DNA from: Flavobacteriales bacterium
GTDB lineage: Bacteria; Bacteroidota; Bacteroidia; UBA10329
Direction: 5' to 3'
Length of the DNA stretch: 64,000 nucleotides
Assembly: GCA_021739695.1 (NCBI GenBank)
Contig: JAIPBM010000005.1
Location: forward strand, 1 to 64,000
The position numbers and the translations under genes were made by a program. Below are positions 1-591 of the stretch, one piece after another (within the stretch, counting starts at the first letter, position 1; each line of letters opens with the position of its first letter). The notes beneath the pieces are model-generated. The model saw only the letters and a list, made by a program, of their open reading frames with translations, searched no databases and had not been told where the DNA came from.

Positions 1-13
1 ATAAAAAACGTTT

Positions 14-140
14 GCCAACATCAACTATAAAAATAGGGCGTGAAGTGGTTGCCGCTAGTTCATCATGGTTTGCAGTTTTCGGTTTCGGGCGAAAGGACGA
101 AGGTGTTAAAACCCTATTTTCATAGTTGTAAAACGTTGGC
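14..140. repeat. attC-like long imperfect inverted repeat
   Basis: The ends are GCCAAC (14-19) and GTTGGC (135-140), which are reverse complements. Inside them CAACTATAAAAATAGGG (22-38) pairs with CCCTATTTTCATAGTTG (112-128) with one mismatch in 17. The middle (39-111) is an unpaired-looking block with a small internal stem, TTTCG (76-80) with CGAAA. Total length about 127 bp. The plan (short conserved core ends, long imperfect palindrome, variable centre) is that of an integron attC recombination site, although the ends do not match the RYYYAAC/GTTRRRY core exactly. A small gene begins 59 bp to its right. A dispersed palindromic repeat with no link to recombination is the main alternative. 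Confidence 0.55.
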
Positions 141-198
141 GCTCATTGTGAAAAGACGACACAGAAATAAATCAAGATTCTAAAAATCAAGACGCACA

Positions 199-591
199 AT
201 GTTTACATTAGAACAAATAGAATTGGCTCATAGCAAAGTAAAATCAGGAGCTGAGTTTCCAAAATATATAGAGGAAATTAAAAAAATTGGAGTTGCTGCT
301 TTTGAAACTTGGGTTTTTGATAGCCACACAAATTATTTTGGGTTAAACGACTTTCAAACAAAATCTAAACCCAAATATGATAATCTGACAATCGCTTCAA
401 ATAGCGACAAAGACAAATTCAGCCAGTATTTAAAAATTCACCAAAGAGGAGAAACAGACTATTTTACTTTTTGTAATCATTGTGCCGAAACCGGTATTGA
501 AAAATGGATTGTTGACCTTGATAAAATGACTTGTATCTATTATGACAAGGCTGAAAAAGAAATATTAATTGAAAAAGTTCCTTCTCTATAA
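199..591 (+). CDS. DUF1398 family protein
   Basis: 130-residue soluble protein recognised as DUF1398 (YbcV-like) from the opening MFTLEQIELAHSKVKSG, the VFDSHTNYFG segment (about residues 39-48) and the C-terminal part with KWIVDLDKMTCIYYDK. The biochemical role of the family is not known; members turn up as single small genes in many bacteria. The start follows directly on the attC-like repeat, with no Shine-Dalgarno sequence. By eye the gene is clearly richer in A and T than the genes from 819 onward, and it stands alone with repeats on both sides, which suggests recent gain as a mobile cassette. No signal peptide or membrane segment. Confidence 0.75.
   Translation: MFTLEQIELAHSKVKSGAEFPKYIEEIKKIGVAAFETWVFDSHTNYFGLNDFQTKSKPKYDNLTIASNSDKDKFSQYLKIHQRGETDYFTFCNHCAETGIEKWIVDLDKMTCIYYDKAEKEILIEKVPSL

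Follow-up and report, generated by a model that had tools for sequence, protein, structure and literature searches.

The palindrome at the start of the window, the 64,000-nt stretch of Flavobacteriales DNA analysed here, is very probably an attC-like recombination site of a chromosomal gene-cassette platform, in which circular cassettes would be inserted at an attI-like site by a 426-aa tyrosine recombinase. As judged from sequence, this platform appears to be integron-like and widespread in Bacteroidia, and to be served by a recombinase other than the integron integrase IntI.

The first-pass annotation had described a 127-bp palindrome with outer cores, 17-bp arms with one mismatch and a long spacer, and this anatomy was confirmed. 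The outer cores GCCAAC (14-19) and GTTGGC (135-140) enclose a left stem arm, CAACTATAAAAATAGGG (22-38, + strand; conserved in A1), and a right stem arm, CCCTATTTTCATAGTTG (112-128, +), which are complementary at 16 of 17 positions and are separated by a variable terminal loop region of about 73 nt (39-111, +). Covariance model R1 placed the attC-like site at 16-138 (+), 123 nt from CAAC to GTTG (134.4 bits, E=3.7e-32), with an R'-like box, CGTTG, at 134-138 (+). The crossover probably falls inside this GTTG, since the attI and attC junctions of a cassette on contig C16, described below, diverge directly upstream of it. Positions 1-19 (+) would be the 3' end of the preceding cassette; they include an R''-like box, GTTTGCCAAC at 10-19, whose reverse complement, GTTGGCAAAC, is found on contig C28 as the right end of the preceding element. 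The bases to the left of CAAC vary, and their mate is that right end of the previous element, not the right end of the same site; the 6-bp match between GCCAAC and GTTGGC within the window element is partly coincidence.

The element is not a product of chance, because a 160-bp query taken from it returned 33 BLAST matches in the same genome (G000; 4.24 Mb in 53 contigs), and a covariance model trained on 17 copies found 49 elements (E up to 0.2) in the array regions scanned. Elements cluster on contigs C16, C23, C33, C42, C43, C9, C17 and C28, with a few lone copies on C3, C4 and C32, and they are present in 8 of the 9 genomes from the genus, counting this one. The expectation that further copies would be found, each beside a different single gene, held for most of the copies in arrays. 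No Rfam family scored above threshold for the attC-like sites.

The flank to the right of each element proved to be the reverse complement of the flank to the left of the next. Among adjacent pairs, 22 of 33 match at 7/8 positions, compared with 3.6% of non-adjacent pairs, and at the non-matching position A usually stands opposite G. The mean match was 6.1/8 for adjacent flanks and 3.5/8 for the two flanks of the same element, and the observed adjacent mean was reached in 0 of 20,000 permutations. Simple repeats would pair with themselves; these elements pair with their neighbours instead, which argues for cassette logic, and the complementarity reads as the signature of circular cassettes whose two ends form one hairpin. 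Mostly one co-oriented gene lies between neighbouring elements. Of 31 cassettes, 30 have their longest ORF directed towards the element, its ATG often lying 12-14 nt past the site. Orientation, flank complementarity and the number of elements all support the integron-like array proposed at first pass.

The cargo genes are predicted to encode, among others, an exonuclease-BRCT protein, an HNH endonuclease, a NIF phosphatase and a C5 cytosine methylase that is accompanied by a second gene. The methylase is found in a two-gene cassette (L040 on C9, 1070-2808) together with a 250-aa protein that matches no Pfam family; the two may form a restriction-modification pair. A separate observation concerns a common sequence, TCCTAAGCTTGCACTCGTATTAG..., at the ends of C22 (70750-70929) and C42 (25160-25409) and at the start of C34 (1-150). 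At two attC-like sites it replaces the left end, at the same position in each, and the contigs stop inside it; possibly it is an insertion sequence targeting such sites.

Within the window, the gene that follows the element encodes a 130-aa DUF1398 protein (199-591, +; PF07166, E=3.1e-39), which would be cassette cargo. As noted at first pass, its composition differs from its surroundings (30.5% GC, against 45.0% for the window), and its distribution is patchy, with DUF1398 in 31 of 395 genomes of the class. The element had been assigned to this gene, an assignment that had to be reversed: the element closes the preceding cassette, and the DUF1398 cassette has none of its own. The window starts at a contig edge, and its first 139 bp are identical to the last 139 bp of C28, which holds the preceding cassette and its element, so the array does extend to the left as had been predicted. 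The DUF1398 cassette (136-618, +) starts with GTTG directly followed by GCGCTCATTGTG and has no 3' attC-like site; a search downstream of DUF1398 for a mate of GTTGGCGCTC found none, and the covariance model found no further element in the rest of the window. A genome of another family (G193) carries a 90% identical DUF1398 gene with the 5' leader kept, and its copy runs on past the match, which reaches window position 618, into a second gene, whereas the window diverges there. Because of this divergence and the missing downstream element, the window most likely carries an array's final cassette in truncated form. Beyond the array end lies an ORF of 241 aa in the ORF list (819-1544, -), which we take, from its sequence by eye, to be acyltransferase-like. 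Near the DUF1398 gene of G193, its nearest relative, neither a mate nor a site was found, and the idea that DUF1398 is a recognisable cassette gene in other genomes was rejected, the copies there not lying in such cassettes. A second DUF1398 gene of the same genome as the window, 52% identical, lies outside the fetched arrays (L074 on C44, 5875-6261).

The recombinase gene encodes 426 aa and lies on contig C45 (18894-20171). C45 ends 138 bp past its stop codon, and the DNA after the stop is the start of a cassette. Read in reverse complement, the end of C16, which terminates in the crossover CAAC, overlaps the final 139 bp of C45; the same end of C16 overlaps the start of C9, where an attC-like site precedes that cassette start. 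One cassette start of 139 bp thus follows attI on C45 and an attC-like site on C9, with divergence at GTTG, these contig joins resting on 139-bp overlaps in a fragmented assembly. On C33, a 3' remnant of the recombinase gene ends in the same 24 bp as on C45 and is followed by a different cassette. This 24-mer, TATCCCCTAGTTG, occurs only at these two places in the genome with up to 3 mismatches allowed. Since the ends of the gene on C45 and C33 share it, the attI-like site overlaps the recombinase stop codon (CCCCTAG/TTG), and different cassettes follow attI beside the recombinase gene on the two contigs, as in integrons. Other recombinase-related features were seen in the same genome. An ORF of 516 aa resembling a large serine recombinase lies on the other strand about 2.6 kb before the tyrosine recombinase (L065 on C45, 4734-6284); and a second attC-like family, GCTAACACGGGTTTGGC...GCCAAGCCGCAAAACGTTA, lies behind a truncated recombinase relative (L066 on C19, 300-2700; L067 on C38, 7280-7850), with a 206-aa fragment on C38. 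This genome may carry two related platforms, one of them decayed.

The 426-aa protein has the Arg-Lys-His-Arg-His-Tyr residues of a tyrosine recombinase (R257, K282, H346, R349, H372 and Y381), which are invariant in 17 homologues. A search for an IntI-like or another recombinase had been proposed at first pass; a tyrosine recombinase does lie directly at a cassette start, on C45, but it lacks the IntI-specific domain (I2, patch III), with 28 residues there compared with 71 in IntI4 (2A3V), and so is not IntI-like in the defining sense. Most full-length relatives share an added N-terminal domain with a WS...KxW motif, to which Pfam offered sub-threshold DUF5710 matches only. Given the missing IntI-specific domain and the added N-terminal domain that Pfam does not recognise, the protein is not an IntI. 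It scores below every curated cut-off, and the predicted structure of a relative (pTM 0.53) matches XerA and IntI4 about equally. In a quick tree, the deep supports of which are modest, the family falls outside IntI, with IntI and Xer apart from it and short recombinases from alphaproteobacteria and clostridia placed beside or inside it.

A classical integron, with attC sites and an IntI that annotation missed, would produce the same array anatomy. Within its genome, the 426-aa protein does match the IntI family TIGR02249 best, and other classes of the phylum do have true IntIs (84 of 297 genomes of the phylum have a protein over the cut-off). The match reaches only 209 bits against a cut-off of 265, however, and no protein of this genome exceeds that cut-off; among about 74 genomes of the class listed, one (G074) does. 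De novo searches in other genera found 69 attC-like elements in 381 kb of loci of the recombinase family, against 1 in the 437 kb taken from loci of other recombinases. The sites differ as well: the classical R' consensus is GTTRRRY, whereas the R' box here is GTTRNNN, position 5 being T in 27 and C in 6 of the 69 sites, in agreement with the first-pass remark that the core differs from classical attC. Together with the shortened IntI region described above, these differences make a classical integron improbable.

The recombinase family extends well beyond this genome. Homologues were found in 38 of 39 relatives, many of those matches being Xer proteins, and by score (best E about 1e-101 or lower) 62 of the 119 genomes sampled from the class have a family member, at least 3 of these being short open frames that lack the N-terminal domain. 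Among the holders with a name are Seonamhaeicola, Winogradskyella, Rufibacter, Aquiflexum, Flavobacterium and Algoriphagus, and these names point to Bacteroidia as the class. In a first-cassette test, a GTT[AG] start was sought after the recombinase stop codon with a reverse-complement mate within 4 kb. An earlier, stricter version gave mates at 6 of 23 loci (0.08 expected), the lower yield being due to the short loci used; the repeat with an HMM-defined family gave 22 of 40 (0.47 expected), and replication at new loci 4 of 9 (0.01 expected). Possible readings of the 18 family loci without a mate are old arrays, divergent arrays or no array. Mates were also found at 4 of 57 other recombinases, namely three truncated or fragmentary family members (L093, L188 and L121) and one true IntI (L233). 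At that IntI locus (G079:C1), the cassette-like mate pair follows in the same direction, which suggests that the co-directional layout occurs there too. Chains of successive cassettes reached 9 in G036, 7 in L124 and L148, and 6 in L138, and chains of 6-9 cassettes include one in the isolate Seonamhaeicola aphaedonensis. Contig ends lie within 1 kb of the recombinase downstream at 19 of 46 loci and upstream at 4, an excess expected at variable arrays.

It is slightly less probable still than a classical integron that the cassettes owe their mobility to the chromosomal XerCD or to a phage integrase, with the 426-aa recombinase as a bystander. The genome does encode several tyrosine recombinases, and Xer is used by some mobile elements (PMC7790495), but arrays begin at the 3' end of this particular recombinase on two contigs and in many genera, and the Xer-like controls yielded zero mates in the first-cassette test.

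The stems of the sites are asymmetric between strands. Read on the top strand, the mismatches were almost all A.C, with 106 cases of A (left) opposite C (right) and 1 of C opposite A in 60 sites from other genera. An A.C mismatch on the top strand is a G.T wobble on the bottom strand, which therefore pairs better, and the bottom-strand arms were the more stable in 54 of 60 sites elsewhere and in 32 of 33 in this genome. The bottom strand is probably the one that forms the recombined hairpin, which would parallel the bottom-strand preference of classical attC sites (PMC2727003). Folding the element as single-stranded DNA had been suggested at first pass; individual elements folded better than shuffled sequences, though only moderately so (z -0.8 to -5.2). 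Terminators and MITEs can take the form of 120-nt hairpins between co-oriented genes, and a few copies do stand alone, but that these palindromes are dispersed repeats (REP, MITE) or terminators lying between genes by chance is very improbable, as complementarity joins the flanks of consecutive copies and not both ends of one, attI junctions exist on C45 and C33, and selection for an RNA hairpin on the top strand would predict the opposite bias, so that the mismatches disfavour the RNA-sense strand.

Under the cassette-platform reading, each cassette would consist of variable ends, one ORF and an attC-like site. Its two ends are complementary, GTTRnnnn... and ...nnnnYAAC, so that the full hairpin would form only in the circle. 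The 426-aa recombinase would join folded attC-like sites to each other and to the attI-like site at its own stop codon; circular single-gene cassettes, excised elsewhere by the same enzyme, would be inserted there, downstream of the recombinase gene and in its direction, and expression would presumably come from upstream of attI. The sequences themselves show the arrays, the complementary ends, the orientation of the genes, one attI with two different cassettes, the link to this recombinase family across the class and the strand-asymmetric stems; the recombinase as catalyst of excision and insertion, the circular intermediate and recombination of a single strand are all putative. The IntI-specific domain has been tied to single-strand attC recombination, which integron integrases gained by acquiring I2 (PMC7790495); as the recombinase here lacks that domain, the step could differ. 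We propose tentatively, holding it slightly less probable than its negation, that Bacteroidia have a system of their own, in which an Xer-like lineage without I2 recombines bottom-strand hairpins recognised by the N-terminal WS..KxWYxP domain, and which would be an independent route to single-strand cassette recombination. Published work regards integrons as very rare in Bacteroidetes, where In0 elements only and then one complete integron, in Salinibacter, have been recorded (IntegronFinder 2.0, PMC9024848). No such system was found reported in open-licence full text in PubMed Central, preprints lying outside that search. If functional, it would be a large gene-capture system overlooked in a major phylum, and what a recombinase needs in order to act on a folded single strand would become directly testable.

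Among known systems, XerA and XerC-D (NF040815, TIGR02224/5; PDB 5HXY, 4A8E) share the catalytic fold and give the best sequence and structure matches, but the recombinase here has an extra N-terminal domain and is tied to cassette arrays, not to dif. The arrays on C16, C23 and C43, which have no recombinase on the same fetched stretch, resemble CALINs (attC clusters lacking integrases), although the sites here depart from GTTRRRY and the genome does contain a recombinase of this family. The closest likeness is to a chromosomal integron such as the Vibrio cholerae superintegron, with tandem, co-oriented, single-gene cassettes each with an attC-type site, a GTT core, complementary and cassette-specific outer boxes (R'' and R'), attI beside the recombinase, two spaced core pairs separated by an unpaired spacer, a loop that is long and variable, and a strand-asymmetric stem. 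Sites here are mostly about 60 or 123-127 nt long, compared with 57-142 nt for classical integron attC (PMC2727003). Unlike in a chromosomal integron, the attI-like site in this genome lies downstream of and co-directional with the recombinase, over its stop codon; the complementarity of the GTTRNNN box reaches about 10 nt; where classical sites have extrahelical bases, conserved A.C mismatches are found, which are G.T when read on the bottom strand; and the recombinase lacks the IntI-specific domain but has an added N-terminal one that Pfam does not match. The system thus appears to work like an integron without being an IntI integron.
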